DNA from: Metaphire vulgaris
Taxonomy: Eukaryota; Annelida; Clitellata; Crassiclitellata; Megascolecidae
Reading direction: 5' to 3'
DNA: 64,000 bases
Assembly (NCBI GenBank): GCA_018105865.1
Contig: CM030848.1
Span: forward strand, 14,639,809-14,703,808
A program made the translations under genes and the position numbers. Position 1 is the stretch's first letter. Every line of letters starts with the position of its first letter. Below, piece after piece: positions 5,274-42,300 of this stretch. A model generated the notes under the pieces. That model did not search any database, was not told where the DNA came from, and saw only the letters and a list, made by a program, of their open reading frames with translations.

Positions 5274-5457
5274 CGCAAATGATCCGCACAGGGCAAGTGC
5301 ATACACAGACAACAAAAACAGGAAAATCAAACGCGAATTTTGTTTAATATTCAAAATATCCTCAACGAAATTAAATTTCCTTCGTGTTCGTCGCAAATCA
5401 ATCGTTGACATCCAAACCTCCGTAAAGTTAGCAGTGAATTCGATATTCAGATATTCG
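5274..5457. promoter_or_regulatory. 5' flank / probable 5' UTR of PLEKHF2-like gene
   Basis: This 184-bp stretch separates the PLEKHF2-like start codon (minus strand) from the 9-bp duplication that bounds the giant element. It should contain the 5' UTR, and perhaps the core promoter unless a non-coding first exon lies further away. I see no clear TATA box. Confidence 0.35.
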
Positions 5458-5466
5458 CACATTCGC
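5458..5466. repeat. Left 9-bp target-site duplication
   Basis: CACATTCGC, identical in the same orientation to 28516-28524. The next base on the inside starts the terminal inverted repeat at both ends. Nine bases is the usual duplication length of Mutator-like and Foldback elements. Confidence 0.8.
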
Positions 5467-5592
5467 GGGTCCGTCTAATCGGCGGATGAGGGCGGGGCGG
5501 ATGAGCTGGCGGAAGAGCGGGCGGATGAACGCGGCGGATGAGAACCGTGGCGGATGAGAAGCCTGGCGGATGAGAAGCCTATATGGGGAGGG
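5467..5592 (+). repeat. Left terminal inverted repeat
   Basis: About 126 bp built from GGCGGATGAG and GGCGGATGA variants, ending CCTATATGGGGAGGG where the satellite begins. It matches the reverse complement of 28405-28515 except for three bases near the tip, a divergent block of about 8 bases after AGCTGG, and one extra copy of a ~16-bp GGCGGATGAGAAGCCT unit. Confidence 0.85.
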
Positions 5593-8500
5593 TATGTTTC
5601 GGTCCTAATCGGTACGTTTCGGCCCTATTCGGTACGTTTCGGTCCTATTCGGTCCTATTAGGTACGTTTCGGTCCTAATCGGTGCGGTTCGGTCCTATTC
5701 GGTCCTATTAGGTACGTTTCGGTCCTAATCGGTACGTTTCAGTCCTATTCGGTACGTTTCGGTCCGATTCGGTCCTATTAGGTACGTTTTGGTCCTAATC
5801 GGTACGTTTCGGCACTTTTCGGTACGTTTCGGTCCTATTCGGTCCTATTGAGTACGTTTCGGTCCTAATCGGTACGTTTCGGTCCTAATCGGTACGTTTC
5901 GGTCCTATTCAGTACGTTTCGGTCCTATTCGATCCTATTCGGTCCTATTAGGTAAATTTCGGTGCTAATCGGTACGTTTCGGCCCTATTCGGTACGTTTC
6001 GGTCCTATTCGGTCCTATTAGGACGTTTCTGTCCTAATCGGTGCCTTTCGGTCCTATTCGGTCCTATTAGGTACGTTTCGGTCCTAATCGGTACGTTTCA
6101 GTCCTATTCGGTACCTTTCGGTCCTATTCGGTCCTATTAGGTACGTTTTGGTCCGGAACTATTCGGGAACTAAGTACCGTACCGCACCGTTACGCACCGT
6201 ACAGTACCGTACCGCACCGTACCGTACCCCACCGGTACTATTCGGTACGTTTCGGTACGTTTCGATCCTAATCGGTACGTTTCGGCCTTTTTCGGTACGT
6301 TTCGGTCCTATTCGGTCCTATTAGGTACGTTTCGGTCCTAATCGGTACGTTTCGGCCCTATTCGGTACTTTTCGGTCCTATTCGGTCCTATTAGGTACGT
6401 TTCGGTCCTAATCGGTACGTTTCGGCCCTATTCGGTACGTTTCGGTCCTATTCGGTCCTATTAGGTACGTTTCGGTCCTATTCGAACGGAACTAAGTACC
6501 GCACCGTACCGCAACCTTACGCACCGTACAGTACCGTACCGCACCGTACCGTATCGCACCGGTCCGTACCGCACCGCACCGTTTCGGTCCTATTCGGTCC
6601 TATTAGGTACGTTTCGGTCCTATTCGGTACGTTTCGGTCCTATTAGGTACGTTTCGGTCCTAATCGGTGCGTTTCGGTCCTATTCGGTCCTATTAGGTAC
6701 GTTTCGGTCCTAATCGGTACGTTTCAGTCCTATTCGGTACGTTTCGGTCCTATTCGGTCCTATTAGGTACGTTTCGGTCCTAATCGGTACGTTTCGGTCC
6801 TATTCGGTACGTTTCGGTCCTAATCGCACCGTTACGCACCGTACCGTGCCGCACCGTACCGTACCGCACCGCACCGTACGTTTCGGTACGTTTCGATCCT
6901 AATCGGTACGTTTCGGCCCTTTTCGGTACGTTTCGGTCCTATTAGGTACGTTTCGGTCCTAATCGGTCCTATTAGGTACGTTTCGGTCCTATTAGGTTCG
7001 TTTCGGTCCTAATCGGTACGTTTCAGTCCTATTCGGTCCTAATCGGTACGTTTCGGTCCTAATCGGTACGTTTCGGTCCTATTCGGTACGTTTCGGTCCT
7101 AATCGGTACGTTTCGGCCCTATTCGGTACGTTTCGGTCCTACTCGGTCCTATTAGGTACGTTTCGGTCCTAATCGGTACGTTTCGGTCCTATTCGGTACG
7201 TTTCGGTCCTAATCGGTGCGTTTCGGTCCTATTCGGTCCTATTAGGTACGTTACGGTCCTATTCGGTACGTTTCGGTCCTAATCGGTGCGTTGTGGTCCT
7301 ATTCGGTCCTATTAGGTACGTTTCGGTCCTAATCGGTACGTTTCGGTCCTATTCGGTACGTTTCGGTCCTAATCGGTGCGTTTCGGTCCTATTCGGTCCT
7401 ATTAGGTACGTTTCGGTCCTATTCGGTCCTATTCGGTACGTTTCGGTCCTAATCGGTACGTTTCGGTCCTATTCGGTAAGTTTCGGTCCTATTCGGTCCT
7501 ATTAGGTACGTTTCGGTCCTAATCGGTACGTATCGGTCCTATTCGGTACGTTTCGGCCCTATTCGGTACGTTTCGGTCCTATTCGGTCCTATTAGGTACG
7601 TTTCGGTCCTATTCGGTACGTTTCGGTCCTATTCGGTCCTATTCGGTACGTTTCGGTCCTATTCGGTCCTATTAGGTACGTTTCGGTCCTAATCGGTGCG
7701 TTTCGGTCCTATTCGGTCCTATTAGGTATGTTTCGGTCCTATTCGGTACGTTTCGGTCCTATTCGGTACGTTTCGGTACGTTTCGGTCCTAATCGGTACG
7801 TTTCGGCCCTATTCGGTACGTTTCGGTCCTATTCGGTCCTATTAGGTACGTTTCGGTCCTAATCGGTGCGTTTCGGTCCTATTCGGTCCTATTAGGTACG
7901 TTTCGGTCCTAATCGGTACGTTTCGGTCCTATTCGGTACGTTTCGGTCCTAATCGGTGCGTTTCGGTCCTATTCGGTCCTATTAGGTACGTTACGGTCCT
8001 ATTCAGTACGTTTCAGTCCTATTCGGTACGTTTCGGTCCTATTCGGTCCTATTAGGTACGTTTCGGTCCTAATCGGTGCGTTTCGGTCCTATTCGGTCCT
8101 ATTAGGTACGTTTCGGTCCTATTCGGTACGTTTCGGTCCTATTCGGTACGTTTCGGTACGTTTCGGCCCTATTCGGTACGTTTCGGTACGTTTCGGTCCT
8201 CTTAGGTACGTTTCGGTCCTAATCGGTGCGTTTCGGTCCTATTCGGTCCTATTAGGTATGTTTCGGTCCTATTCGGTACGTTTCGGTCCTATTCGGTACG
8301 TTTCGGTCCTATTCGGTCCTATTCGGTACGTTTCGGTCCTAATCGGTACGTTTCGGCCCTATTCGGTACGTTTCGGTCCTATTCGGTCCTATTAGGTACG
8401 TTTCGGTCCTAATCGGTGCGTTTCGGTCCTATTCGGTCCTATTAGGTACGTTTCGGTCCTAATCGGTACGTTTCGGTCCTAGTCGGTGCGTTTCGGTCCT

Positions 8501-11079
8501 ATTCGGTCCTATTAGGTACGTTTCGGTCCTATTAGGTACGTTTCGGTCCTAATCGGTACGTTTCGGTCCTATTCGGTACGTTTCAGCCCTATTCGGTACG
8601 TTTCGGTCCTATTCGGTCCTATTAGGTACGTTTCGGTCCTAATCGGTACGTATCGGTCCTATTCGGTTCGTTTCGGCCCTATTCGGTACGTTTCGGTCCT
8701 ATTAGGTACGTTTCGGTCCTAATCGGTCCTATTCGGTCCTATTCGGTACGTTTCGGTCCTATTAGGTACGTTTCGGTCCTATTAGGTACGTTTCGGTCCT
8801 ATTCGGTACGTTTCGGTCCTATTCGGTCCTATTCGGTACGTTTCGGTCCTATTCGGTCCTATTAGGTACGTTTCGGTCCTAATCGGTGCGTTTCGGTCCT
8901 ATTCGGTCCTATTAGGTATGTTTCGGTCCTATTCGGTACGTTTCGGTCCTATTCGGTACGTTTCGGTACGTTTTCGGTCCTAATCGGTACGTTTCGGCCC
9001 TATTCGGTACGTTTCGGTCCTATTCGGTCCTATTAGGTACGTTTCGGTCCTATTCGGTCCTATTAGGTACGTTTCGGTCCTAATCGGTACGTTTCGGTCC
9101 TATTCGGTACGTTTCGGTCCTAATCGGTGCGTTTCGGTCCTATTCGGTCCTATTAGGTACGTTACGGTCCTATTCAGTACGTTTCAGTCCTATTCGGTAC
9201 GTTTCGGTCCTATTCGGTCCTATTAGGTACGTTTCGGTCCTAATCGGTGCGTTTCGGTCCTATTCGGTCCTATTAGGTACGTTTCGGTCCTATTCGGTAC
9301 GTTTCGGTCCTATTCGGTACGTTTCGGTACGTTTCGGCCCTATTCGGTACGTTTCGGTACGTTTCGGTCCTCTTAGGTACGTTTCGGTCCTAATCGGTGC
9401 GTTTCGGTCCTATTCGGTCCTATTAGGTATGTTTCGGTCCTATTCGGTACGTTTCGGTCCTATTCGGTACGTTTCGGTACGTTTCGGTACGTTTCGGTTA
9501 TAATCGGTACGTTTCGGCCCTATTCGGTACGTTTCGGTCCTATTCGGTCCTATTAGGTACGTTTCGGTCCTAATCGGTGCGTTTCGGTCCTATTCGGTCC
9601 TATTAGGTACGTTTCGGTCCTAATCGGTACGTTTCGGTCCTAGTCGGTGCGTTTCGGTCCTATTCGGTCCTATTAGGTACGTTTCGGTCCTATTAGGTAC
9701 GTTTCGGTCCTAATCGGTACGTTTCGGTCCTATTCGGTACGTTTCGGCCCTATTCGGTACGTTTCGGTCCTATTCGGTCCTATTAGGTACGTTTCGGTCC
9801 TAATCGGTACGTATCGGTCCTATTCGGTTCGTTTCGGCCCTATTCGGTACGTTTCGGTCCCTATTAGGTACGTTTCGGTCCTAATCGGTCCTATTCGGTC
9901 CTATTCGGTACGTTTCGGTCCTATTAGGTACGTTTCGGTCCTAATCGGTCCTATTCGGTCCTATTCGGTACGTTTCGGTCCTAATCGGTGCGTTTCGGTC
10001 CCTATTCGGTCCTATTTAGGTACGTTTCGGTCCTATTCGGTTCGTTTCGGTCCTATTCGGTACGTTTCGGTCCTATTCGGTCCTATTAGGTACGTTTCGG
10101 TCCTATTCGGTCCTATTAGGTACGTTTCGGTCCTAATCGGTGCGTTTCGGTCCTATTCGGTCCTATTAGGTACGTTTCGGTCCTATTCGGTACGTTTCGG
10201 TCCTATTCGGTACGTTTCGGTACGTTTCGGTACGTTTCGGTCCTAATCGGTACGTTTCGGCCCTATTCGGTACGTTTCGGTCCTATTCGGTCCTATTAGG
10301 TACGTTTCGGTCCTAATCGGTGCGTTTCGGTCCTATTCGGTCCTATTAGGTACGTTTCGGTCCTAATCGCTACGTTTCGGTCCTATTCGGTACGTTTCGG
10401 TCCTAATCGGTGCGTTTCGGTCCTATTCGGTCCTATTAGGTACGTTACGGTCCTATTCGGTACATTTCGGTCCTATTCGGTACGTTTCGGTCCTATTCGG
10501 TCCTATTAGGTACGTTTCGGTCCTAATCGGTGCGTTTCGGTCCTATTCGGTACGTTTCGGTACGTTTCGGTCCTAATCGGTACGTTTCGGCCCTATTCGG
10601 TACGTTTCGGTCCTATTCGGTCCTATTAGGTACGTTTTCGGTCCTATTCGGTCCTATTAGGTACGTTTCGGTCCTAATCGGTACGTTTCGGTCCTATTCG
10701 GTACGTTTCGGTCCTAATCGGTGCGTTTCGGTCCTATTCGGTCCTATTAGGTACGTTACGGTCCTATTCAGTACGTTTCAGTCCTATTCGGTACGTTTCG
10801 GTCCTATTCGGTCCTATTAGGTACGTTTCGGTCCTAATCGGTGCGTTTCGGTCCTATTCGGTCCTATTAGGTACGTTTCGGTCCTATTCGGTACGTTTCG
10901 GTCCTATTCGGTACGTTTCGGTACGTTTCGGCCCTATTCGGTACGTTTCGGTACGTTTCGGTCCTCTTAGGTACGTTTCGGTCCTAATCGGTGCGTTTCG
11001 GTCCTATTCGGTCCTATTAGGTATGTTTCGGTCCTATTCGGTACGTTTCGGTCCTATTCGGTACGTTTCGGTACGTTTC
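5590..11079 (+). repeat. Satellite super-repeat, copy A
   Basis: Rare markers recur at a constant offset of about 5489 bp: GGTGCGGTTC at 5681 and 11170, GTCCGGAACT at 6151 and 11641, TTGTGG at 7291 and 12777. Past about 12,900 the offset becomes about 5808 because of an extra ~320-bp local duplication in copy B (second TTGTGG at 13097). Later markers (AGTCGGTGCG at 8481 and 14289, and at 9642 and 15451) keep that spacing. Confidence 0.85.
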
Positions 11080-14000
11080 GGTACGTTTCGGTCCTAATCG
11101 GTACGTTTCGGCCCTATTCGGTACGTTTCGGTCCTATTCGGTCCTATTAGGTACGTTTCGGTCCTAATCGGTGCGGTTCGGTCCTATTCGGTCCTATTAG
11201 GTACGTTTCGGTCCTAATCGGTACGTTTCAGTCCTATTCGGTACGTTTCGGTCCGATTCGGTCCTATTAGGTACGTTTTGGTCCTAATCGGTACGTTTCG
11301 GCACTTTTCGGTACGTTTCGGTCCTATTCGGTCCTATTGAGTACGTTTCGGTCCTAATCGGTACGTTTCGGTCCTAATCGGTACGTTTCGGTCCTATTCA
11401 GTACGTTTCGGTCCTATTCGATCCTATTCGGTCCTATTAGGTAAATTTCGGTGCTAATCGGTACGTTTCGGCCCTATTCGGTACGTTTCGGTCCTATTCG
11501 GTCCTATTAGGGACGTTTCTGTCCTAATCGGTGCCTTTCGGTCCTATTCGGTCCTATTAGGTACGTTTCGGTCCTAATCGGTACGTTTCAGTCCTATTCG
11601 GTACCTTTCGGTCCTATTCGGTCCTATTAGGTACGTTTTGGTCCGGAACTATTCGGGAACTAAGTACCGTACCGCACCGTTACGCACCGTACAGTACCGT
11701 ACCGCACCGTACCGTACCCCACCGGTACTATTCGGTACGTTTCGGTACGTTTCGATCCTAATCGGTACGTTTCGGCCTTTTCGGTACGTTTCGGTCCTAT
11801 TCGGTCCTATTAGGTACGTTTCGGTCCTAATCGGTACGTTTCGGCCCTATTCGGTACTTTTCGGTCCTATTCGGTCCTATTAGGTACGTTTCGGTCCTAA
11901 TCGGTACGTTTCGGCCCTATTCGGTACGTTTCGGTCCTATTCGGTCCTATTAGGTACGTTTCGGTCCTATTCGGGAACTAAGTACCGCACCGTACCGCAA
12001 CCTTACGCACCGTACAGTACCGTACCGCACCGTACCGTATCGCACCGGTCCGTACCGCACCGCACCGTTTCGGTCCTATTCGGTCCTATTAGGTACGTTT
12101 CGGTCCTATTCGGTACGTTTCGGTCCTATTAGGTACGTTTCGGTCCTAATCGGTGCGTTTCGGTCCTATTCGGTCCTATTAGGTACGTTTCGGTCCTAAT
12201 CGGTACGTTTCAGTCCTATTCGGTACGTTTCTGTCCTATTCGGTCCTATTAGGTACGTTTCGGTCCTAATCGGTGCGTTTCGGTCCTATTCGGTACGTTT
12301 CGGTCCTAATCGCACCGTTACGCACCGTACCGTGCCGCACCGTACCGTAGCGCACCGCACCGTACGTTTCGGTACGTTTCGATCCTAATCGGTACGTTTC
12401 GGCCCTTTTCGGTACGTTTCGGTCCTATTAGGTACGTTTCGGTCCTAATCGGTCCTATTAGGTACGTTTCGGTCCTATTAGGTTCGTTTCGGTCCTAATC
12501 GGTACGTTTCAGTCCTATTCGGTCCTAATCGGTACGTTTCGGTCCTAATCGGTACGTTTCGGTCCTATTCGGTACGTTTCGGTCCTAATCGGTACGTTTC
12601 GGCCCTATTCGGTACGTTTCGGTCCTACTCGGTCCTATTAGGTACGTTTCGGTCCTAATCGGTACGTTTCGGTCCTATTCGGTACGTTTCGGTCCTAATC
12701 GGTGCGTTTCGGTCCTATTCGCTCCTATTAGGTACGTTACGGTCCTATTCGGTACGTTTCGGTCCTAATCGGTGCGTTGTGGTCCTATTCGGTCCTATTA
12801 GGTACGTTTCGGTCCTAATCGGTACGTTTCGGTCCTATTCGGTACGTTTCGGTCCTAATCGGTGCGTTTCGGTCCTATTCGGTCCTATTAGGTACGTTTC
12901 GGTCCTATTCGGTCCTATTCGGCCCTATTCGGTACGTTTCGGTCCTACTCGGTCCTATTAGGTACGTTTCGGTCCTAATCGGTACGTTTCGGTCCTATTC
13001 GGTACGTTTCGGTCCTAATCGGTGCGTTTCGGTCCTATTCGGTCCTATTAGGTACGTTACGGTCCTATTCGGTACGTTTCGGTCCTAATCGGTGCGTTGT
13101 GGTCCTATTCGGTCCTATTAGGTACGTTTCGGTCCTAATCGGTACGTTTCGGTCCTATTCGGTACGTTTCGGTCCTAATCGGTGCGTTTCGGTCCTATTC
13201 GGTCCTATTAGGTACGTTTCGGTCCTATTCGGTCCTATTCGGTACGTTTCGGTCCTAATCGGTACGTTTCGGTCCTATTCGGTAAGTTTCGGTCCTATTC
13301 GGTCCTATTAGGTACGTTTCGGTCCTAATCGGTACGTATCGGTCCTATTCGGTACGTTTCGGCCCTATTCGGTACGTTTCGGTCCTATTCGGTCCTATTA
13401 GGTACGTTTCGGTCCTATTCGGTACGTTTCGGTCCTATTCGGTCCTATTCGGGACGTTTCGGTCCTATTCGGTCCTATTAGGTACGTTTCGGTCCTAATC
13501 GGTGCGTTTCGGTCCTATTCGGTCCTATTAGGTATGTTTCGGTCCTATTCGGTACGTTTCGGTCCTATTCGGTACGTTTCGGTACGTTTCGGTCCTAATC
13601 GGTACGTTTCGGCCCTATTCGGTACGTTTCGGTCCTATTCGGTCCTATTAGGTACGTTTCGGTCCTAATCGGTGCGTTTCGGTCCTATTCGGTCCTATTA
13701 GGTACGTTTCGGTCCTAATCGGTACGTTTCGGTCCTATTCGGTACGTTTCGGTCCTAATCGGTGCGTTTCGGTCCTATTCGGTCCTATTAGGTACGTTAC
13801 GGTCCTATTCAGTACGTTTCAGTCCTATTCGGTACGTTTCGGTCCTATTCGGTTCTATTAGGTACGTTTCGGTCCTAATCGGTGCGTTTCGGTCCTATTC
13901 GGTCCCTATTAGGTACGTTTCGGTCCTATTCGGTACGTTTCGGTCCTATTCGGTACGTTTCGGTACGTTTCGGCCCTATTCGGTACGTTTCGGTACGTTT

Positions 14001-17000
14001 CGGTCCTCTTAGGTACGTTTCGGTCCTAATCGGTGCGTTTCGGTCCTATTCGGTCCCTATTAGGTATGTTTCGGTCCTATTCGGTACGTTTCGGTCCTAT
14101 TCGGTACGTTTCGGTCCTATTCGGTCCTATTCGGTACGTTTCGGTCCTAATCGGTACGTTTCGGCCCTATTCGGTACGTTTCGGTCCTATTCGGTCCTAT
14201 TAGGTACGTTTCGGTCCTAATCGGTGCGTTTCGGTCCTATTCGGTCCTATTAGGTACGTTTCGGTCCTAATCGGTACGTTTCGGTCCTAGTCGGTGCGTT
14301 TCGGTCCTATTCGGTCCTATTAGGTACGTTTCGGTCCTATTAGGTACGTTTCGGTCCTAATCGGTACGTTTTCGGTCCTATTCGGTACGTTTCAGCCCTA
14401 TTCGGTACGTTTCGGTCCTATTCGGTCCTATTAGGTACGTTTCGGTCCTAATCGGTACGTATCGGTCCTATTCGGTTCGTTTCGGCCCTATTCGGTACGT
14501 TTCGGTCCTATTAGGTACGTTTCGGTCCTAATCGGTCCTATTCGGTCCTATTCGGTACGTTTCGGTCCTATTAGGTACGTTTCGGTCCTATTAGGTACGT
14601 TTCGGTCCTATTCGGTACGTTTCGGTCCTATTCGGTCCTATTCGGTACGTTTCGGTCCTATTCGGTCCTATTAGGTACGTTTCGGTCCTAATCGGTGCGT
14701 TTCGGTCCTATTCGGTCCTATTAGGTATGTTTCGGTCCTATTCGGTACGTTTCGGTCCTATTCGGTACGTTTCGGTACGTTTCGGTCCTAATCGGTACGT
14801 TTCGGCCCTATTCGGTACGTTTCGGTCCTATTCGGTCCTATTAGGTACGTTTCGGTCCTATTCGGTCCTATTAGGTACGTTTCGGTCCTAATCGGTACGT
14901 TTCGGTCCTATTCGGTACGTTTCGGTCCTAATCGGTGCGTTTCGGTCCTATTCGGTCCTATTAGGTACGTTACGGTCCTATTCAGTACGTTTCAGTCCTA
15001 TTCGGTACGTTTCGGTCCTATTCGGTCCTATTAGGTACGTTTCGGTCCTAATCGGTCTAATTTCGGTCCTATTCGGTCCTATTAGGTACGTTTCGGTCCT
15101 ATTCGGTACGTTTCGGTCCTATTCGGTACGTTTCGGTACGTTTCGGCCCTATTCGGTACGTTTCGGTACGTTTCGGTCCTCTTAGGTACGTTTCGGTCCT
15201 AATCGGTGCGTTTCGGTCCTATTCGGTCCTATTAGGTATGTTTCGGTCCTATTCGGTACGTTTCGGTCCTATTCGGTACGTTTCGGTACGTTTCGGTACG
15301 TTTCGGTCCTAATCGGTACGTTTCGGCCCTATTCGGTACGTTTCGGTCCTATTCGGTCCTATTAGGTACGTTTCGGTCCTAATCGGTGCGTTTCGGTCCT
15401 ATTCGGTCCTATTAGGTACGTTTCGGTCCTAATCGGTACGTTTCGGTCCTAGTCGGTGCGGTCCGTTTCGGTCCTATTCGGTCCGGTTAGGTACGTTTCG
15501 GTCCTATTAGGTACGTTTCGGTCCTAAATCGGTACGTTTCGGTCCTATTCGGTACGTTTCGGCCCTATTCGGTACGTTTCGGTCCTATTCGGTCCTATTA
15601 GGTACGTTTCGGTCCTAATCGGTACGTATCGGTCCTATTCGGTTCGTTTCGGCCCCTATTCGGTACGTTTCGGTCCTATTAGGTACGTTTCGGTCCTAAT
15701 CGGTCCTATTCGGTCCTATTCGGTACGTTTCGGTCCTATTAGGTACGTTTCGGTCCTAATCGGTCCTATTCGGTCCTATTCGGTACGTTTCGGTCCTAAT
15801 CGGTGCGTTTCGGTCCTATTCGGTCCTATTAGGTACGTTTCGGTCCTATTCGGTACGTTTCGGTCCTATTCGGTACGTTTCGGTCCTATTCGGTCCTATT
15901 AGGTACGTTTCGGTCCTATTCGGTCCTATTAGGTACGTTTCGGTCCTAATCGGTGCGTTTCGGTCCTATTCGGTCCTATTAGGTATGTTTCGGTCCTATT
16001 CGGTACGTTTCGGTCCTATTCGGTACGTTTCGGTACGTTTCGGTACGTTTCGGTCCTAATCGGTACGTTTCGGCCCTATTCGGTACGTTTCGGTCCTATT
16101 CGGTCCTATTAGGTACGTTTCGGTCCTAATCGGTGCGTTTCGGTCCTATTCGGTCCTATTAGGTACGTTTCGGTCCTAATCGCTACGTTTCGGTCCTATT
16201 CGGTACGTTTTCGGTCCTAATCGGTGCGTTTCGGTCCTATTCGGTCCTATTAGGTACGTTACGGTCCTATTCGGTACATTTCGGTCCTATTCGGTACGTT
16301 TCGGTCCTATTCGGTCCTATTAGGTACGTTTCGGTCCTAATCGGTGCGTTTCGGTCCTATTCGGTACGTTTCGGTACGTTTCGGTCCTAATCGGTACGTT
16401 TCGGCCCTATTCGGTACGTTTCGGTCCTATTCGGTCCTATTAGGTACGTTTCGGTCCTATTCGGTCCTATTAGGTACGTTTCGGTCCTAATCGGTACGTT
16501 TCGGTCCTATTCGGTACGTTTCGGTCCTAATCGGTGCGTTTCGGTCCTATTCGGTCCTATTAGGTACGTTACGGTCCTATTCAGTACGTTTCAGTCCTAT
16601 TCGGTACGTTTCGGTCCTAGTCGGTGCGTTTCGGTCCTATTCGGTCCTATTAGGTACGTTTCGGTCCTATTAGGTACGTTTCGGTCCTAATCGGTACGTT
16701 TCGGTCCTATTCGGTACGTTTCGGCCCTATTCGGTACGTTTCGGTCCTATTCGGTCCTATTAGGTACGTTTCGGTCCTAATCGGTACGTTTCGGTCCTAT
16801 TCGGTACGTTTCGGCCCTATTCGGTACGTTTCGGTCCTATTCGGTCCTATTAGGTACGTTTCGGTCCTAATCGGTACGTATCGGTCCTATTCGGTTCGTT
16901 TCGGCCCTATTCGGTACGTTTCGGTCCTATTAGGTACGTTTCGGTCCTAATCGGTCCTATTCGGTCCTATTCGGTACGTTTCGGTCCTATTAGGTACGTT

Positions 17001-20000
17001 TCGGTCCTAATCGGTCCTATTCGGTCCTATTCGGTACGTTTCGGTCCTAATCGGTGCGTTTCGGTCCTATTCGGTCCTATTAGGTACGTTTCGGTCCTAT
17101 TCGGTACGTTTCGGTCCTATTCGGTACGTTTCGGTCCTATTCGGTCCTATTAGGTACGTTTCGGTCCTATTCGGTCCTATTAGGTACGTTTCGGTCCTAA
17201 TCGGTGCGTTTCGGTCCTATTCGGTCCTATTAGGTATGTTTCGGTCCTATTCGGTACGTTTCGGTCCTATTCGGTACGTTTCGGTACGTTTCGGTACGTT
17301 TCGGTCCTAATCGGTACGTTTCGGCCCTATTCGGTACGTTTCGGTCCTATTCGGTCCTATTAGGTACGTTTCGGTCCTAATCGGTGCGTTTCGGTCCTAT
17401 TCGGTCCTATTAGGTACGTTTCGGTCCTAATCGCTACGTTTCGGTCCTATTCGGTACGTTTCGGTCCTAATCGGTGCGTTTCGGTCCTATTCGGTCCTAT
17501 TAGGTACGTTACGGTCCTATTCGGTACATTTCGGTCCTATTCGGTACGTTTCGGTCCTATTCGGTCCTATTAGGTACGTTTCGGTCCTAATCGGTGCGTT
17601 TCGGTCCTATTCGGTACGTTTCGGTACGTTTCGGTCCTAATCGGTACGTTTCGGCCCTATTCGGTACGTTTCGGTCCTATTCGGTCCTATTAGGTACGTT
17701 TCGGTCCTATTCGGTCCTATTAGGTACGTTTCGGTCCTAATCGGTACGTTTCGGTCCTATTCGGTACGTTTCGGTCCTAATCGGTGCGTTTCGGTCCCTA
17801 TTCGGTCCTATTAGGTACGTTACGGTCCTATTCAGTACGTTTCAGTCCTATTCGGTACGTTTCGGTCCTATTCGGTCCTATTAGGTACGTTTCGGTCCTA
17901 ATCGGTGCGTTTCGGTCCTATTCGGTCCTATTAGGTACGTTTCGGTCCTATTCGGTACGTTTCGGTCCTATTCGGTACGTTTCGGTACGTTTCGGCCCTA
18001 TTCGGTACGTTTCGGTACGTTTCGGTCCTCTTAGGTACGTTTCGGTCCTAATCGGTGCGTTTCGGTCCTATTCGGTCCTATTAGGTATGTTTCGGTCCTA
18101 TTCGGTACGTTTCGGTCCTATTCGGTACGTTTCGGTACGTTTCGGTACGTTTCGGTCCTAATCGGTACGTTTCGGCCCTATTCGGTACGTTTCGGTCCTA
18201 TTCGGTCCTATTAGGTACGTTTCGGTCCTAATCGGTGCGTTTCGGTCCTATTCGGTCCTATTAGGTACGTTTCGGTCCTAATCGGTACGTTTCGGTCCTA
18301 GTCGGTGCGTTTCGGTCCTATTCGGTCCTATTAGGTACGTTTCGGTCCTATTAGGTACGTTTCGGTCCTAATCGGTACGTTTCGGTCCTATTCGGTACGT
18401 TTCGGCCCTATTCGGTACGTTTCGGTCCTATTCGGTCCTATTAGGTACGTTTCGGTCCTAATCGGTACGTATCGGTCCTATTCGGTTCGTTTCGGCCCTA
18501 TTCGGTACGTTTCGGTCCTATTAGGTACGTTTCGGTCCTAATCGGTCCTATTCGGTCCTATTCGGTACGTTTCGGTCCTGTTAGGTACGTTTCGGTCCTA
18601 ATCGGTCCTATTCGGTCCTATTCGGTACGTTTCGGTCCTAATCGGTGCGTTTCGGTCCTATTCGGTCCTATTAGGTACGTTTCGGTCCTATTCGGTACGT
18701 TTCGGTCCTATTCGGTACGTTTCGGTCCTATTCGGTCCTATTAGGTACGTTTCGGTCCTATTCGGTCCTATTAGGTACGTTTCGGTCCTAATCGGTGCGT
18801 TTCGGTCCTATTCGGTCCTATTAGGTATGTTTCGGTCCTATTCGGTACGTTTCGGTCCTATTCGGTACGTTTCGGTACGTTTCGGTACGTTTCGGTCCTA
18901 ATCGGTACGTTTCGGCCCTATTCGGTACGTTTCGGTCCTATTCGGTCCTATTAGGTACGTTTCGGTCCTAATCGGTGCGTTTCGGTCCTATTCGGTCCTA
19001 TTAGGTACGTTTCGGTCCTAATCGCTACGTTTCGGTCCTATTCGGTACGTTTCGGTCCTAATCGGTGCGTTTCGGTCCTATTCGGTCCTATTAGGTACGT
19101 TACGGTCCTATTCGGTACATTTCGGTCCTATTCGGTACGTTTTTCGGTCCTATTCGGTCCTATTAGGTACGTTTCGGTCCTAATCGGTGCGTTTCGGTCC
19201 TATTCGGTACGTTTCGGTACGTTTCGGTCCTAATCGGTACGTTTCGGCCCTATTCGGTACGTTTCGGTCCTATTCGGTCCTATTAGGTACGTTTCGGTCC
19301 TAATCGGTACGTTTCGGTCCTATTCGGTACGTTTCGGTCCTAATCGGTGCGTTTCGGTCCTATTCGGTCCTATTAGGTACGTTACGGTCCTATTCAGTAC
19401 GTTTCAGTCCTATTCGGTACGTTTCGGTCCTATTCGGTCCTATTAGGTACGTTTCGGTCCTAATCGGTGCGTTTCGGTCCTATTCGGTCCTATTAGGTAC
19501 GTTTCGGTCCTATTCGGTACGTTTCGGTCCTATTCGGTACGTTTCGGTACGTTTCGGCCCTATTCGGTACGTTTCGGTACGTTTCGGTCCTCTTAGGTAC
19601 GTTTCGGTCCTAATCGGTGCGTTTCGGTCCTATTCGGTCCTATTAGGTATGTTTCGGTCCTATTCGGTACGTTTCAGTCCTATTCGGTACGTTTCGGTCC
19701 TATTCGGTCCTATTAGGTACGTTTCGGTCCTAATCGGTGCGTTTCGGTCCTATTCGGTCCTATTAGGTACGTTTCGGTCCTATTCGGTACGTTTCGGTCC
19801 TATTCGGTACGTTTCGGTACGTTTCGGCCCTATTCGGTACGTTTCGGTACGTTTCGGTCCTCTTAGGTACGTTTCGGTCCTAATCGGTGCGTTTCGGTCC
19901 TATTCGGTCCTATTAGGTATGTTTCGGTCCTATTCGGTACGTTTCGGTCCTATTCGGTACGTTTCGGTACGTTTCGGTACGTTTCGGTCCTAATCGGTAC

Positions 20001-23000
20001 GTTTCGGCCCTATTCGGTACGTTTCGGTCCTATTCGGTCCTATTAGGTACGTTTCGGTCCTAATCGGTGCGTTTCGGTCCTATTCGGTCCTATTAGGTAC
20101 GTTTCGGTCCTAATCGGTACGTTTCGGTCCTAGTCGGTGCGTTTCGGTCCTATTCGGTCCTATTAGGTACGTTTCGGTCCTATTAGGTACGTTTCGGTCC
20201 TAATCGGTACGTTTCGGTCCTATTCGGTACGTTTCGGCCCTATTCGGTACGTTTCGGTCCTATTCGGTCCTATTAGGTACGTTTCGGTCCTAATCGGTAC
20301 GTATCGGTCCTATTCGGTTCGTTTCGGCCCTATTCGGTACGTTTCGGTCCCTATTAGGTACGTTTCGGTCCTAATCGGTCCTATTCGGTCCTATTCGGTA
20401 CGTTTCGGTCCTATTAGGTACGTTTCGGTCCTAATCGGTCCTATTCGGTCCTATTCGGTACGTTTCGGTCCTAATCGGTGCGTTTCGGTCCTATTCGGTC
20501 CTATTAGGTACGTTTCGGTCCTATTCGGTACGTTTCGGTCCTATTCGGTACGTTTCGGTCCTATTCGGTCCTATTAGGTACGTTTCGGTCCTATTCGGTC
20601 CTATTAGGTACGTTTCGGTCCTAATCGGTGCGTTTCGGTCCTATTCGGTCCTATTAGGTATGTTTCGGTCCTATTCGGTACGTTTCGGTCCTATTCGGTA
20701 CGTTTCGGTACGTTTCGGTACGTTTCGGTCCTAATCGGTACGTTTCGGCCCTATTCGGTACGTTTCGGTCCTATTCGGTCCTATTAGGTACGTTTCGGTC
20801 CTAATCGGTGCGTTTCGGTCCTATTCGGTCCTATTAGGTACGTTTCGGTCCTAATCGCTACGTTTCGGTCCTATTCGGTACGTTTCGGTCCTAATCGGTG
20901 CGTTTCGGTCCTATTCGGTCCTATTAGGTACGTTACGGTCCTATTCGGTACATTTCGGTCCTATTCGGTACGTTTCGGTCCTATTCGGTCCTATTAGGTA
21001 CGTTTCGGTCCTAATCGGTGCGTTTCGGTCCTATTCGGTACGTTTCGGTACGTTTCGGTCCTAATCGGTACGTTTCGGCCCTATTCGGTACGTTTCGGTC
21101 CTATTCGGTCCTATTAGGTACGTTTCGGTCCTATTCGGTCCTATTAGGTACGTTTCGGTCCTAATCGGTACGTTTCGGTCCTATTCGGTACGTTTCGGTC
21201 CTAATCGGTGCGTTTCGGTCCTATTCGGTCCTATTAGGTACGTTACGGTCCTATTCAGTACGTTTCAGTCCTATTCGGTACGTTTCGGTCCTATTCGGTC
21301 CTATTAGGTACGTTTCGGTCCTAATCGGTGCGTTTCGGTCCTATTCGGTCCTATTAGGTACGTTTCGGTCCTATTCGGTACGTTTCGGTCCTATTCGGTA
21401 CGTTTCGGTACGTTTCGGCCCTATTCGGTACGTTTCGGTACGTTTCGGTCCTCTTAGGTACGTTTCGGTCCTAATCGGTGCGTTTCGGTCCTATTCGGTC
21501 CTATTAGGTATGTTTCGGTCCTATTCGGTACGTTTCGGTCCTATTCGGTACGTTTCGGTACGTTTCGGTACGTTTCGGTCCTAATCGGTACGTTTCGGCC
21601 CTATTCGGTACGTTTCGGTCCTATTCGGTCCTATTAGGTACGTTTCGGTCCTAATCGGTGCTTTTCGGTCCTATTCGGTCCTATTAGGTACGTTTCGGTC
21701 CTAATCGGTACGTTTCGGTCCTAGTCGGTGCGTTTCGGTCCTATTCGGTCCTATTAGGTACGTTTCGGTCCTATTAGGTACGTTTCGGTCCTAATCGGTA
21801 CGTTTCGGTCCTATTCGGTACGTTTCGGCCCTATTCGGTACGTTTCGGTCCTATTCGGTCCTATTAGGTACGTTTCGGTCCTAATCGGTACGTATCGGTC
21901 CTATTCGGTTCGTTTCGGCCCTATTCGGTACGTTTCGGTCCTATTAGGTACGTTTCGGTCCTAATCGGTCCTATTCGGTCCTATTCGGTACGTTTCGGTC
22001 CTATTAGGTACGTTTCGGTCCCTAATCGGTCCTATTCGGTCCTATTCGGTACGTTTCGGTCCTAATCGGTGCGTTTCGGTCCTATTCGGTCCTATTAGGT
22101 ACGTTTCGGTCCTATTCGGTACGTTTCGGTCCTATTCGGTACGTTTCGGTCCTATTCGGTCCTATTAGGTACGTTTCGGTCCTATTCGGTCCTATTAGGT
22201 ACGTTTCGGTCCTAATCGGTGCGTTTCGGTCCTATTCGGTCCTATTAGGTATGTTTCGGTCCTATTCGGTACGTTTCGGTCCTATTCGGTACGTTTCGGT
22301 CCTATTCGGTCCTATTCGGTACGTTTCGGTCCTAATCGGTACGTTCGGCCCTATTCGGTACGTTTCGGTCCTATTCGGTCCTATTAGGTACGTTTCGGTC
22401 CTAATCGGTGCGTTTCGGTCCTATTCGGTCCTATTAGGTACGTTTCGGTCCTAATCGGTACGTTTCGGTCCTAGTCGGTGCGTTTCGGTCCTATTCGGTC
22501 CTATTAGGTACGTTTCGGTCCTATTAGGTACGTTTCGGTCCTAATCGGTACGTTTCGGTCCTATTCGGTACGTTTCAGCCCTATTCGGTACGTTTCGGTC
22601 CTATTCGGTCCTATTAGGTACGTTTCGGTCCTAATCGGTACGTATCGGTCCTATTCGGTTCGTTTCGGCCCTATTCGGTACGTTTCGGTCCTATTAGGTA
22701 CGTTTCGGTCCTAATCGGTCCCTATTCGGTCCTATTCGGTACGTTTCGGTCCCTATTAGGTACGTTTCGGTCCTATTAGGTACGTTTCGGTCCTATTCGG
22801 TACGTTTCGGTCCTATTCGGTCCTATTCGGTACGTTTCGGTCCTATTCGGTCCTATTAGGTACGTTTCGGTCCTAATCGGTGCGTTTCGGTCCCTATTCG
22901 GTCCTATTAGGTATGTTTCGGTCCTATTCGGTACGTTTCGGTCCTATTCGGTACGTTTCGGTACGTTTCGGTCCTAATCGGTACGTTTCGGCCCTATTCG

Positions 23001-26000
23001 GTACGTTTCGGTCCTATTCGGTCCTATTAGGTACGTTTCGGTCCTATTCGGTCCTATTAGGTACGTTTCGGTCCTAATCGGTACGTTTCGGTCCTATTCG
23101 GTACGTTTCGGTCCTAATCGGTGCGTTTCGGTCCTATTCGGTCCTATTAGGTACGTTACGGTCCTATTCAGTACGTTTCAGTCCTATTCGGTACGTTTCG
23201 GTCCTATTCGGTCCTATTAGGTACGTTTCGGTCCTAATCGGTGCGTTTCGGTCCTATTCGGTCCTATTAGGTACGTTTCGGTCCTATTCGGTACGTTTCG
23301 GTCCTATTCGGTACGTTTCGGTACGTTTCGGCCCTATTCGGTACGTTTCGGTACGTTTCGGTCCTCTTAGGTACGTTTCGGTCCTAATCGGTGCGTTTCG
23401 GTCCTATTCGGTCCTATTAGGTATGTTTCGGTCCTATTCGGTACGTTTCGGTCCTATTCGGTACGTTTCGGTACGTTTCGGTACGTTTCGGTCCTAATCG
23501 GTACGTTTCGGCCCTATTCGGTACGTTTCGGTCCTATTCGGTCCTATTAGGTACGTTTCGGTCCTAATCGGTGCGTTTCGGTCCTATTCGGTCCTATTAG
23601 GTACGTTTCGGTCCTAATCGGTACGTTTCGGTCCTAGTCGGTGCGTTTCGGTCCTATTCGGTCCTATTAGGTACGTTTCGGTCCTATTAGGTACGTTTCG
23701 GTCCTAATCGGTACGTTTCGGTCCTATTCGGTACGTTTCGGCCCTATTCGGTACGTTTCGGTCCTATTCGGTCCTATTAGGTACGTTTCGGTCCTAATCG
23801 GTACGTATCGGTCCCTATTCGGTTCGTTTCGGCCCTATTCGGTACGTTTCGGTCCTATTAGGTACGTTTCGGTCCTAATCGGTCCTATTCGGTCCTATTC
23901 GGTACGTTTCGGTCCTATTAGGTACGTTTCGGTCCTAATCGGTCCTATTCGGTCCTATTCGGTACGTTTCGGTCCTAATCGGTGCGTTTCGGTCCTATTC
24001 GGTCCTATTAGGTACGTTTCGGTCCTATTCGGTACGTTTCGGTCCTATTCGGTACGTTTCGGTCCTATTCGGTCCTATTAGGTACGTTTCGGTCCTATTC
24101 GGTCCTATTAGGTACGTTTCGGTCCTAATCGGTGCGTTTCGGTCCTATTCGGTCCTATTAGGTATGTTTCGGTCCTATTCGGTACGTTTCGGTCCTATTC
24201 GGTACGTTTCGGTACGTTTCGGTACGTTTCGGTCCTAATCGGTACGTTTCGGCCCTATTCGGTACGTTTCGGTCCTATTCGGTCCTATTAGGTACGTTTC
24301 GGTCCTAATCGGTGCGTTTCGGTCCTATTCGGTCCTATTAGGTACGTTTCGGTCCTAATCGCTACGTTTCGGTCCTATTCGGTACGTTTCGGTCCTAATC
24401 GGTGCGTTTCGGTCCTATTCGGTCCTATTAGGTACGTTACGGTCCTATTCGGTACATTTCGGTCCTATTCGGTACGTTTCGGTCCTATTCGGTCCTATTA
24501 GGTACGTTTCGGTCCTAATCGGTGCGTTTCGGTCCTATTCGGTCCTAATCGGTACGTTTCGGTCCTAATCGGTACGTTTCGGCCCTATTCGGTACGTTTC
24601 GGTCCTATTCGGTCCTATTAGGTACGTTTCGGTCCTATTCGGTCCTATTAGGTACGTTTCGGTCCTAATCGGTACGTTTCGGTCCTATTCGGTACGTTTC
24701 GGTCCTAATCGGTGCGTTTCGGTCCTATTCGGTCCTATTAGGTACGTTACGGTCCTATTCAGTACGTTTCAGTCCTATTCGGTACGTTTCGGTCCTATTC
24801 GGTCCTATTAGGTACGTTTCGGTCCTAATCGGTGCGTTTCGGTCCTATTCGGTCCTATTAGGTACGTTTCGGTCCTATTCGGTACGTTTCGGTCCTATTC
24901 GGTACGTTTCGGTACGTTTCGGCCCTATTCGGTACGTTTCGGTACGTTTTCGGTCCTCTTAGGTACGTTTCGGTCCTAATCGGTGCGTTTCGGTCCTATT
25001 CGGTCCTATTAGGTATGTTTCGGTCCTATTCGGTACGTTTCGGTCCTATTCGGTACGTTTCGGTACGTTTCGGTACGTTTCGGTCCTAATCGGTACGTTT
25101 CGGCCCTATTCGGTACGTTTCGGTCCTATTCGGTCCTATTAGGTACGTTTCGGTCCTAATCGGTGCGTTTCAGTCCTATTCGGTCCTATTAGGTACGTTT
25201 CGGTCCTATTCGGTCCTATTCGGTCCTATTCGGTACGTTTCGGTCCTAATCGGTGCGTTTCAGTCCTATTCGGTCCTATTAGGTACGTTTCGGTCCTATT
25301 CGGTACGTTTCGGTCCTATTCGGTACGTTTCGGTCCTATTCGGTCCTATTAGGTACGTTTCGGTCCTATTCGGTCCTATTAGGTACGTTTCGGTCCTAAT
25401 CGGTGCGTTTCGGTCCTATTCGGTCCTATTAGGTATGTTTCGGTCCTATTCGGTACGTTTCGGTCCTATTCGGTACGTTTCGGTACGTTTCGGTACGTTT
25501 CGGTCCTAATCGGTACGTTTCGGCCCTATTCGGTACGTTTCGGTCCTATTCGGTCTTATTAGGTACGTTTCGGTCCTAATCGGTGCGTTTCGGTCCTATT
25601 CGGTCCTATTAGGTACGTTTCGGTCCTAATCGCTACGTTTCGGTCCTATTCGGTACGTTTCGGTCCTAATCGGTGCGTTTCGGTCCTATTCGGTCCTATT
25701 AGGTACGTTACGGTCCTATTCGGTACATTTCGGTCCTATTCGGTACGTTTCGGTCCTATTCGGTCCTATTAGGTACGTTTCGGTCCTAATCGGTGCGTTT
25801 CGGTCCTATTCGGTACGTTTCGGTACGTTTCGGTCCTAATCGGTACGTTTCGGCCTATTCGGTACGTTTCGGTCGTTTCGGTCCTATTCGGTCCCTATTA
25901 GGTACGTTTCGGTCCTAATCGGTACGTTTCGGTCCTATTCGGTACGTTTCGGTCCTAATCGGTGCGTTTCGGTCCTATTCGGTCCTATTAGGTACGTTAC

Positions 26001-28190
26001 GGTCCTATTCAGTACGTTTCAGTCCTATTCGGTACGTTTCGGTCCTATTCGGTCCTATTAGGTACGTTTCGGTCCTAATCGGTGCGTTTCGGTCCTATTC
26101 GGTCCTATTAGGTACGTTTCGGTCCTATTCGGTACGTTTCGGTCCTATTCGGTACGTTTCGGTACGTTTCGGCCCTATTCGGTACGTTTCGGTCCTCTTA
26201 GGTACGTTTCGGTCCTAATCGGTGCGTTTCGGTCCTATTCGGTCCTATTAGGTATGTTTCGGTCCTATTCGGTACGTTTCGGTCCTATTCGGTACGTTTC
26301 GGTACGTTTCGGTACGTTTCGGTCCTAATCGGTACGTTTCGGCCCTATTCGGTACGTTTCGGTCCTATTCGGTCCTATTAGGTACGTTTCGGTCCTAATC
26401 GGTGCGTTTCGGTCCTATTCGGTCCTATTAGGTACGTTTCGGTCCTAATCGGTACGTTTCGGTCCTAGTCGGTGCGTTTCGGTCCTATTCGGTCCTATTA
26501 GGTACGTTTCGGTCCTATTAGGTACGTTTCGGTCCTAATCGGTACGTTTCGGTCCTATTCGGTACGTTTCGGCCTATTCGGTACGTTTCGGTCCTATTCG
26601 GTCCTATTAGGTACGTTTCGGTCCTAATCGGTACGTATCGGTCCTATTCGGTTCGTTGCGGCCCTATTCGGTACGTTTCGGTCCTATTAGGTACGTTTCG
26701 GTCCTAATCGGTCCTATTCGGTACGTTTCGGTCCTATTAGGTACGTTTCGGTCCTAATCGGTCCTATTCGGTCCTATTCGGTACGTTTCGGTCCTAATCG
26801 GTGCGTTTCGGTCCTATTCGGTCCTATTAGGTACGTTTCGGTCCTATTCGGTACGTTTCGGTCCTATTCGGTACGTTTCGGTCCTATTCGGTCCTATTAG
26901 GTACGTTTCGGTCCTATTCGGTCCTATTAGGTACGTTTCGGTCCTAATCGGTGCGTTTCGGTCCTATTCGGTCCTATTAGGTATGTTTCGGTCCTATTCG
27001 GTACGTTTCGGTCCTATTCGGTACGTTTCGGTACGTTTCGGTCCTAATCGGTACGTTTCGGCTCTATTCGGTACGTTTCGGTCCTATTCGGTCCTATTAG
27101 GTACGTTTCGGTCCTAATCGGTGCGTTTCGGTCCTATTCGGTCCTATTAGGTACGTTTCGGTCCTAATCGCTACGTTTCGGTCCTATTCGGTACGTTTCG
27201 GTCCTAATCGGTGCGTTTCGGTCCTATTCGGTCCTATTAGGTACGTTTCGGTCCTAATCGGTACGTTTCGGTCCTAGTCGGTGCGTTTCGGTCCTATTCG
27301 GTCCTATTAGGTACGTTTCGGTCCTATTAGGTACGTTTCGGTCCTAATCGGTACGTTTCGGTCCTATTCGGTACGTTTCGGCCCTATTCGGTACGTTTCG
27401 GTCCTATTCGGTCCTATTAGGTACGTTTCGGTCCTAATCGGTGCGTTTCGGTCCTATTCGGTCCTATTAGGTACGTTTCGGTCCTAATCGGTGCGTTTCG
27501 GTCCTATTCGGTACGTTTCGGTACGTTTCGGTCCTAATCGGTACGTTTCGGCCCTATTCGGTACGTTTCGGTCCTATTCGGTCCTATTAGGTACGTTTCG
27601 GTCCTAATCGGTGCGTTTCGGTCCTATTCGGTCCTATTAGGTACGTTTCGGTCCTAATCGGTACGTTTCGGTCCTATTCGGTACGTTTCGGTCCTAGTCG
27701 GTGCGTTTCGGTCCTATTCGGTCCTATTAGGTACGTTTCGGTCCTATTCGGTACGTTTCGGTCCTATTAGGTACGTTTCGGTCCTAATCGGTGCGTTTCG
27801 GTCCTATTCGGTCCTAATAGGACCGTCCTATTAGGTACGTTTCGGTCCTAATCGGTACGTTTCAGTCCTATTCGGTACGTTTCGGTCCTATTGGTCCTAT
27901 TAGGTACGTTTCGGTCCTAATCGGTACGTTTCGGTCCTATTCGGTCCTATTAGGTACGTTTCGTTCCTAATCGGTGCGTTTCGGTCCTATTCGGTCCTAT
28001 TAGGTACGTTTCGGTCCTAATCGGTACGTTTCGGTCCTATTCGGTACGTTTCGGTCCTAATCGGGAACTAAGTACCGTACCGCACCGTACCCTACCGCAC
28101 CGTACCGTACAGTACCGCACCGTACCGTACCTACTACTGTTCGGTACGTTTTGGTACGTTTCGGTCCTATTCGGTACGTTTCGGTCCTGT
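5593..28190 (+). repeat. 22.6-kb decamer satellite with higher-order repeats
   Basis: The array is almost wholly a string of 10-bp words that start with GGT: GGTCCTATTC, GGTACGTTTC, GGTCCTATTA, GGTCCTAATC, GGTGCGTTTC and rarer variants (GGCCCTATTC, GGTATGTTTC, GGTACGTTAC). Word order is not random. A block of about 5.49 kb (5590-11079) recurs at 11080-16615. Further right, units of about 1.17-1.9 kb recur, with 1591 bp seen repeatedly (for example 17432 to 19023, and about 23157 to 24748). All words keep one orientation, apart from short reverse-type islands rich in ACCGTACCGC (about 6170-6235, 6490-6580, 6826-6880 and copies, 28063-28135). There is no gene; frames such as RYVSVLFGP are translations of the repeat. 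Confidence 0.97.
11080..16615 (+). repeat. Satellite super-repeat, copy B
   Basis: Second copy of the 5590-11079 block. It keeps the same rare word variants in the same order and carries an added ~320-bp internal duplication near 12,780-13,100. It diverges from copy A after about 16,615, where the array becomes a run of shorter units. Confidence 0.8.
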
Positions 28191-28404
28191 TCGTTGCGCC
28201 CTCATTGCTGTATGTGACATATAGCGCCCCCCGCCGTCGCCCCTTCCCATATAGGCTTCTCATCCGCCAGGACCGCCACGGTTCTCATCCGCCACGGTTC
28301 TCATCCGCCGAATCAAACAGATCGCCCTCATTGCTGTATATGACATATAGCGCCCCCCGCCGTCGCCCCCTCCCCATATAGGCTTGTCATCAGCCAGGCT
28401 GTCG
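28191..28404 (-). repeat. Right subterminal duplicated block of the element
   Basis: Two similar units follow one another. Each holds GCCCTCATTGCTGTAT, GACATATAGCGCCCCCC and CCATATAGGCTT, with CATCCGCC repeats between them. The left terminus has only the short CCTATATGGGGAGGG part. The right end has therefore grown by duplicating subterminal sequence, or the left has lost it. Confidence 0.7.
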
Positions 28405-28515
28405 CCCCTCCCCATATAGGCTTCTCATCCGCCACGGTTCTCATCCGCCGCGTTCATCCGCCCTCTCACCTACCAGCTCATCCGCCCCGCCCTCATCCGC
28501 CGATTAGAATCACCC
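28405..28515 (-). repeat. Right terminal inverted repeat
   Basis: Reverse complement of the left terminus at 5467-5592: CTCATCCGCC subrepeats ending CCGATTAGAATCACCC. The outermost four bases and the TCTAATCGGCGGATGAGGG segment match the left end exactly. Confidence 0.85.
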
Positions 28516-28524
28516 CACATTCGC
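28516..28524. repeat. Right 9-bp target-site duplication
   Basis: CACATTCGC, same orientation and sequence as 5458-5466. Confidence 0.8.
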
Positions 28525-32344: not shown

Positions 32345-32424
32345 CTACACATTAACAATAATAATCATTCTAACCTATGCATATTATTACAAGGTTGCTT
32401 ACACATGTAAGGTCAATCACAGAG
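31709..32424. repeat. Source locus of a rearranged segmental duplication
   Basis: 31709-32341 is present in inverted orientation at about 41022-41652, covering two SPC25 exons and their introns. The neighbouring 62 bp at 32363-32424 (CATTCTAACCTATGCATA and onward) is present at 40955-41016 in direct orientation. The two parts therefore have opposite orientation relations in the two places. Confidence 0.85.
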
Positions 32425-42083: not shown

Positions 42084-42300
42084 CTCGAATGCTATAGACA
42101 CACTAATGCGTTTCTTCGAACATAATGATATGGCGACTGTGGATGATATCAATTCCCTGTCGATTATCAAGCATCGCGTTGATTTTATGCGTCTGTATTC
42201 TGTGAAACAGACACATATTGCAGATTTTTTTCGAAGCGGCTCTTAACTTCACACTTACATGTAAATATGGATTATACGGACATGCAGACTGTCTTTGATA
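42084..42300 (+). mobile_element. Tigger/pogo transposase C-terminus with PIP box
   Basis: The open frame ends at 42244-42246. It reads NAIDTLMRFFEHNDM, VDDINSLSIIKHRVDF and then KQTHIADFFRSGS. QTHIADFF fits the PCNA-interacting PIP box (Q-x-x-I-x-x-F-F) that pogo-family transposases carry at their end (established). Probably the other end of the element whose DDE part is at 39977-40360; the middle is missing or displaced. Confidence 0.7.

Follow-up and report, generated by a model that had tools for sequence, protein, structure and literature searches.

Rehavkus transposons generate 9-bp duplications and combine terminal inverted repeats (TIRs) of 26-400 bp with a PHD finger and a minisatellite placed before the 3' TIR (PMC6446971), and in Tribolium the inverted termini of Rehavkus-1_TC harbor short arrays of the satellite TCsat23 (PMC10218199). 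The foldback element Tetris (TIR-220) of Drosophila virilis has tandem-repeat foldback ends and, in its complete copies, 8-9 bp duplications; its repeats became kilobase-size satellite arrays, three of its copies were structurally complete and no transposase was found, and arrays of larger size may, in the view of its authors, have impaired transposition (PMC4079207). The Mutator/Foldback elements Tm1 of root-knot nematodes carry composite TIRs with tandem units of ~14 bp, short asymmetric tip motifs and mostly 9-bp (8-10) duplications, and comprise both members resembling miniature inverted-repeat transposable elements (MITEs) and transposase-bearing ones (PMC3169594). Here we analysed a stretch of 64,000 nucleotides from the annelid Metaphire vulgaris (the window; C17:14639809-14703808 of a 728-Mb assembly of 246 contigs, which also served for all genome-wide counts). 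We consider it very probable that positions 5467-28515 are a non-autonomous Mutator-like (MULE) transposon, Foldback/Rehavkus-like, whose interior is wholly decamer satellite, and that such arrays were first seeded and then amplified.

The element measures 23,049 bp from tip to tip and is bounded by exact copies of the 9-bp word CACATTCGC, which occurs in the window twice on the + strand (5458-5466 and 28516-28524) and once on the - strand (50237). Its ends form an ungapped inverted repeat with 90 of 98 positions identical from the tip, the three bases after the initial GGGT being mismatched (CCG vs GAT), so that the perfect duplication and tip-to-tip inverted repeat described around the array in a previous sequence-only reading of the window stand as proposed. 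The right terminal block (about 319 bp) exceeds the left one (126 bp), its words recur at 126-bp spacing, and 13 other right ends among the matches listed resemble it at 97-100% identity. Empty sites were searched with the window flanks joined by one CACATTCGC, the best 40 of 125 candidates being scored. The 40 matches to this joined-flank query comprised the two window halves and 38 sites spanning the junction at 79-88% identity, which are paralogous repeat copies and not alleles of the window locus. Each of the three sites read out of these 38 holds a single CACATTCGC, reading GCACATTCGCTCC, in line with the sequence-only reading, which had called for a single copy in an empty-site allele. 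Since the uninterrupted repeat copies read carry a single CACATTCGC, the element landed in one member of a dispersed repeat, duplicating this word. The resulting organization is as follows.

5416..5457, + strand: left part of the dispersed repeat entered by the element (positions 60-101 of the joined-flank query)
5458..5466, + strand: left target-site duplication CACATTCGC, found as a lone copy in the three empty sites
5467..5592, + strand: left TIR, 126 bp, with tip GGGTCCGTCTAATCGG followed by GGCGGATGAG subrepeats
5591..28196, + strand: decamer satellite array (limits 5591-28064 in Tandem Repeats Finder, TRF; related units up to 28196)
28197..28515, - strand: right terminal block, 319 bp, with tip GGGTGATTCTAATCGG reading inward, then GGCGGATGAG units
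28516..28524, + strand: right target-site duplication CACATTCGC, an exact match to the left one
28525..28634, + strand: right part of the same dispersed repeat (positions 111-220 of the joined-flank query)

With its TIRs and its 9-bp duplication, which falls within the 8-11 bp of Mutator/MULE elements, the window copy has the ends of this class. It lacks the long inverted arms of short tandem repeats that characterize Foldback elements, its array running in one orientation (1,552 diagnostic words forward vs 1 reverse). An inverted-repeat search near the window ends returned one chance-like pair only, located within the array, and missed the element arms because these lie 23 kb apart. Rfam at the gathering threshold gave no match in the window, and viral contigs scanned by exact pattern contained neither the tip nor the array.

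These ends recur throughout the genome. We scored at least 102 matches to the left end (126 bp; best 40 of 144 candidates) and at least 124 to the right block (319 bp; best 40 of 116 candidates), while a 27-base tip pattern with up to one mismatch retrieved 91 matches vs 0 for its backward control and a subrepeat pair pattern 613 vs 2. Pairing of two tips defined 23 elements, the window copy included, 16 of which are flanked by exact duplications (eight of 9 bp and eight of 8 bp); in a further three (C31c, C32 and C33) the duplication matches with one mismatch. The duplicated sequences all differ among copies, e.g., GTTCATTTG, CTATTAATA, CGTTGTTAT, TCTAAACTC, GTCGCGATG and CGTAAAATA, and none of 506 mispaired left-right end combinations reached even 6 bp. 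Same-tip copies with distinct duplications thus exist, as had been anticipated, but the expectation of 9-bp duplications holds for the window copy and must be widened to 8 or 9 bp for the family. A simple satellite flanked by repeats by chance is ruled out by the duplication and tip counts set against their controls.

Three kinds of element have these tips in common: one-armed satellite elements, foldbacks and short elements. One-armed copies span 23,049 bp (window), 13,601 bp (C19), 12,827 bp (C33), 12,706 bp (C11a), 12,307 bp (C4), 6,601 bp (C31a), 6,082 bp (C31b), 3,944 bp (C30) and 3,015 bp (C32); the window copy and C32 were read entire and the others from their ends. In the five foldback relatives (C17b, C36a, C31c, C26 and C12; 4.6-9.3 kb, full sequence), the decamer array reverses at one sharp centre with at most one word misplaced. 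Besides inverted satellite or terminal-repeat frames, no frame of 100 amino acids or more was seen in these five, and a search for a transposase within them yielded inverted satellite frames only. Short elements (0.5-0.9 kb) consist largely of terminal-type repeat, as judged from end and subrepeat matches. At C7:7750703/7750704, C20:14201781/14201782 and C4:1175523/1175524, two tips abut directly, resembling elements joined end to end, and the C7 and C20 loci also have the sequence beyond that junction in common.

A transposase-bearing partner with the same kind of ends was found at C1:2655222-2674089 (18.9 kb; tips GGGTCCG and GGGTATG, 8-bp duplication AATTACCG). Transposase pieces and a cysteine/histidine stretch, which we take to be SWIM-like and which has no Pfam match, lie at 2662577-2665383; because the transposase is spread over three frames, either the gene is split or this copy is no longer intact. 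The joined pieces have 29 homologous proteins, and four of the eight tested (P0024, P0025, P0029 and P0035) pass the Pfam MULE cut-off, with P0041 narrowly below it and the nearest homologues, P0018 and P0020, without Pfam match. In an alignment of ten sequences, YDTTF, DGE and a later E are conserved. A second frame of 318 amino acids (P0005; 2669427-2670380) contains a PHD finger (PF00628, E-value 1.4e-7, passing the cut-off) together with a weak Ulp1 match (E-value 0.026, failing it). One of the four homologues scanned (P0015) passes the Ulp1 cut-off, and precomputed Pfam annotation assigns Ulp1 to two more (P0013 and P0016). A minisatellite of ~100-121 bp units, with 46 GGCGGATGAG words in about 2.5 kb, precedes the 3' tip.

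Elsewhere in the genome, the PHD/Ulp1-like protein is encoded at nine loci with at least 50% identity, six of them (C1, C25, two on C19 and two on C40) no more than about 17 kb from terminal-repeat matches. The transposase is found at nine loci with at least 59% identity, four of which (C1, C24 and two on C40) are ~14 kb or nearer to such matches; both identity cuts were our choice, and genes were paired with terminal repeats by eye. The gene/repeat layout of these loci is not constant, as the genes have the long repeat block on their downstream side in C1 and C25 and on their upstream side in C24 and on C40. C21 holds uninterrupted frames of both genes and no tip among the matches listed. The MULE-type gene between matching tips that the sequence-only reading had advised seeking is thus present in C1, recognized through its homologues, and membership of the family in the Mutator (MULE) superfamily is well supported via this partner. 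Assignment to Rehavkus is likely on traits, not on a tree, since the PHD finger and the minisatellite next to the 3' TIR both occur in C1. The Foldback/MULE build proposed earlier stands as regards the MULE ends and the partner transposase; the window copy itself is one-armed, five relatives being foldbacks. Judging from the common ends, we infer that a C1-type transposase would recognize the tips and GGCGGATGAG subrepeats and would move satellite elements, the window copy among them, in trans.

Like Rehavkus (PMC6446971), the C1 partner has a PHD finger and a minisatellite, here of GGCGGATGAG words, before the 3' tip. It differs in that the window copy shows no coding sequence and an interior made entirely of a different, decamer satellite, that duplications in the family are as often of 8 bp, as in C1, as of 9 bp, and that the C1 PHD finger shares its frame with an Ulp1-like stretch. 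The association of a satellite with a Rehavkus-type element recalls TCsat23 (PMC10218199). This family and Tetris both show tandem repeats in foldback ends, duplications of 8-9 bp and kilobase-size arrays, but here long arrays are enclosed by ends and duplications that are intact, one element sharing the tips carries a transposase gene, and the repeat unit is 10-20 bp vs about 220 bp (PMC4079207). Tm1 is alike in its composite repeat TIRs, duplication sizes, asymmetric tips and both kinds of member, and differs in that its repeats are described within the TIRs, with no satellite core mentioned in the excerpts (PMC3169594). No wholly satellite MULE of this size appeared in the literature covered, which included parts of PMC6446971, PMC10218199, PMC4079207, PMC13359780, PMC12628747 and PMC3169594 and left most subscription papers outside. 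Scale and content set the present family apart from these systems, namely a wholly satellite interior of up to 23 kb between intact ends.

TRF resolved the interior of the window copy as a single array (5591-28064) of period 20, with 1,170 copies, 76% matches and related periods of 10, 50 and 70. The array has a strongly one-sided composition (AT skew about -0.5) and a CpG observed/expected ratio of 2.07 vs 0.62-0.64 in the flanks, and its frames of at least 110 amino acids are repeat frames only. Several long segments are duplicated within it, and a short interlude recurs, as listed here.

5596..6900, + strand: array segment that recurs at 11085-12386 (1,301 positions aligned, 3 mismatched)
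11085..12386, + strand: second copy of segment 5596-6900 (the same 3 mismatches in 1,301)
12918..15206, + strand: duplicate of segment 7112-9400 (2,285 positions aligned, 5 mismatched)
20350..21824, + strand: duplicate of segment 16926-18400 (1,474 positions aligned, 1 mismatched)
28072..28131, + strand: GTACC-type interlude near the right end (TRF)
6174-6228, 6496-6582, 6835-6879, 11664-11718, 11982-12068 and 12321-12365: stretches like the GTACC-type interlude (TRF)

Further duplications pair 6865-7236 with its copy (1 mismatch in 372) and 16886 with 23814 (4 in 1,314, gaps apart). In five of six comparisons the duplicates are 99.70-99.93% identical; the sixth pair, a tandem one of 1,591 bp, is older (97.3%). 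A strict scan for internal duplications detected four runs of at least 900 bp only, since insertions and deletions shift the repeat register.

Sisters with near-identical ends differ in length from 3 to 23 kb, so that arrays must lengthen or shorten rapidly. Thus, the left ends of C11a, C30, C31b and C32 show 0 mismatches to the window copy over 124 bp, and these elements measure 12.7, 3.9, 6.1 and 3.0 kb, respectively, vs 23.0 kb. Over the left 1.6 kb, identity to the window copy is 98.4% in C32, 98.2% in C11a, 96.6% in C30, 95.3% in C31b, 89.5% in C19, 87.1% in C33 and 66.5% in C31a. That the window copy grew recently is suggested by its near-identical internal duplications, on account of which growth there is favored over shrinkage in all sisters. 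Mechanistically, transposition would sow seeds and local amplification would make some of them long arrays, with unequal exchange or copy-choice repair between repeats probably both lengthening and shortening them.

The structure of three elements discloses a secondary route of dispersal. C11b, C18 and C38 have flanks in common, ~480 bp long beyond one tip and ~179 bp long beyond the opposite tip, and C29 and C36b have the same second flank. We rejected the idea that the first three represent failed duplications, as they sit within a second DNA transposon with CATAGA tips and its own 8-bp duplications (GACAAAAC, AAGAAGAC and GTTTGGAC). Parts of the two flanks joined into a 328-base query (best 40 of 743 candidates scored) gave at least 81 matches, 41 of them uninterrupted over the junction and 40 short and partial. 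One empty copy of the outer transposon was read (L090) and has 8 bp at the junction that are absent from the composite; the satellite element hence replaced 8 bp of its target and made no duplication. Since the three composites have identical junctions and their own outer duplications, a single insertion was followed by transfer to at least three sites, i.e., an abundant MITE-like transposon received one satellite element and moved the composite. Left outer flanks of the composites are 97.7-100% identical, with 2.3, 2.9 and 13.2 kb between tips; C18 and C38 are identical over 481 of 481 bp of this flank and differ in 2,915 vs 13,180 bp between tips.

We also examined where the satellite itself resides. 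Two array searches returned 486 and 415 matches, not all listed, with 39 candidates scored in each, and the loci were counted by eye. The listed matches define 35 separate array loci, of which 21 coincide with tips or terminal-repeat matches; for these 21, transposition does scatter arrays. The remaining 14 have no recognizable 27-base tip nearby, searched with up to one mismatch, and are the following.

C39, C7, C3, C13, C14, C8, C15:15.77M, C36:0.54M and C22: array loci without tip
C29:13.02M, C30:9.25M, C28, C6 and C15:1.17M: further array loci without tip

The C7 array was probed for its end, and array only was found. These 14 loci may represent free arrays that were seeded, or else copies whose ends have decayed. 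For the earlier proposal of a satellite amplified in a mobile carrier that seeds arrays, the scattering by transposition is accordingly shown at the 21 loci.

Besides these 14 loci, several observations weigh against the proposed seeding of arrays by a MULE and their later growth. The evidence for movement consists of traces in the sequence, and that for the putative link between transposase and tips consists of common tips and subrepeats. No duplication was found in four of the 23 pairs (C8 and the composites C11b, C18 and C38). Joined, the C1 transposase pieces match nothing in Pfam, and one piece by itself matches MULE below the cut-off (E-value 0.055). As to recent growth, seven sisters agree with the window copy at 99.2-100% over their right 385 bp, as closely as its internal duplications agree with each other, and at 92-97% over the right 1.2 kb, and one internal pair is only 97.3% identical, so that the age order is not clean; moreover, divergence of the arms may have arisen by array turnover, and gene conversion could make the duplications look young.

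Among other explanations, the one that fares best, although we deem it improbable, is that the 23-kb array arrived whole and has hardly changed, long satellites being true cargo. Several sisters with exact duplications are also long (12.7, 13.6 and 12.3 kb), and the near-identity of the sister right ends implies little time since the copies split; because these ends are as alike as the internal duplications, the odds of a one-piece move rise slightly. Against it, two sisters whose left ends are identical over 124 bp measure just 3.0 and 3.9 kb, and five of the six internal duplications of the window copy are closer to each other than its left arm is to that of any of seven sisters. Array length shifts fast, and the 23 kb therefore need not have moved in a single piece. 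Somewhat less likely still, the satellite would be mainly free-standing and captured by a transposon that contributes little to its spread, a scenario favored by the 14 tip-less loci but countered by the 21 with tips or terminal repeats and by a tip search tolerating a single mismatch at most. Tandem arrays are hard to assemble, and the array length could in part be an assembly artefact; we regard this as quite unlikely, as the longest exact repeat inside the array is 872 bp, near-identical blocks still differ, long accurate reads would resolve them, and copies elsewhere reach 12-13 kb. Finally, that two independent short inverted-repeat elements (MITEs) flank a pre-existing free satellite, the whole never having transposed, is barely credible, for short same-tip elements (0.5-0.9 kb) do exist but a single 9-bp duplication spans the block and the empty sites, with the target repeat uninterrupted at other loci, in effect rule it out.

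The transposition of seeds by a MULE, followed by local amplification, might extend to other arrays. C76:50295-78510 (28.2 kb) shares the tips, is flanked by a perfect duplication of 9 bp (CAATTTTAA), and near its ends, on either side of a middle of ~20 kb, contains arrays of 12-16 bp AGCACGGGTGCC-type (GGGTGCC-type), GGGT-type and TTAGGG-like repeats. Tentatively, and with less than even likelihood, one MULE/Rehavkus-type system could act as a general satellite shuttle that moves several unrelated arrays, and the dispersed satellites here would then stem chiefly from such transposition coupled to local amplification. At C20, a GGAA array adjoins a terminal repeat, and at L067 (C15:1273581-1283580) ~7.5 kb of GAAG-type repeat lead straight into decamer satellite with a right terminal block, no left end being found.

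The remainder of the window holds other features. Another inverted-repeat element is present in two copies of opposite orientation (31708-32424 and 40953-41720; 94% identity over 634 bp), a minisatellite of 18/36 bp, a period divisible by three, maps to 35481-35688 (TRF), and a DDE_1 transposase piece lies at 39953-40357 (+). A frame at 42275-43891 (-) matches the endonuclease/exonuclease/phosphatase family just under the cut-off and resembles a long interspersed nuclear element (LINE); its homologue search returned four unnamed proteins. The DUF4660-domain reading frame at 47719-48435, presumably of the C1orf52/UPF0690 family, is likely a host gene exon.

How satellites move between chromosomes is a standing question, and this family offers a direct route for the spread of satellite arrays. 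With a recent family, empty sites and a likely transposase in one assembly, seeding, growth and hitchhiking become traceable copy by copy, and the three composites carried in a MITE-like element constitute a natural experiment on the speed at which array length changes.

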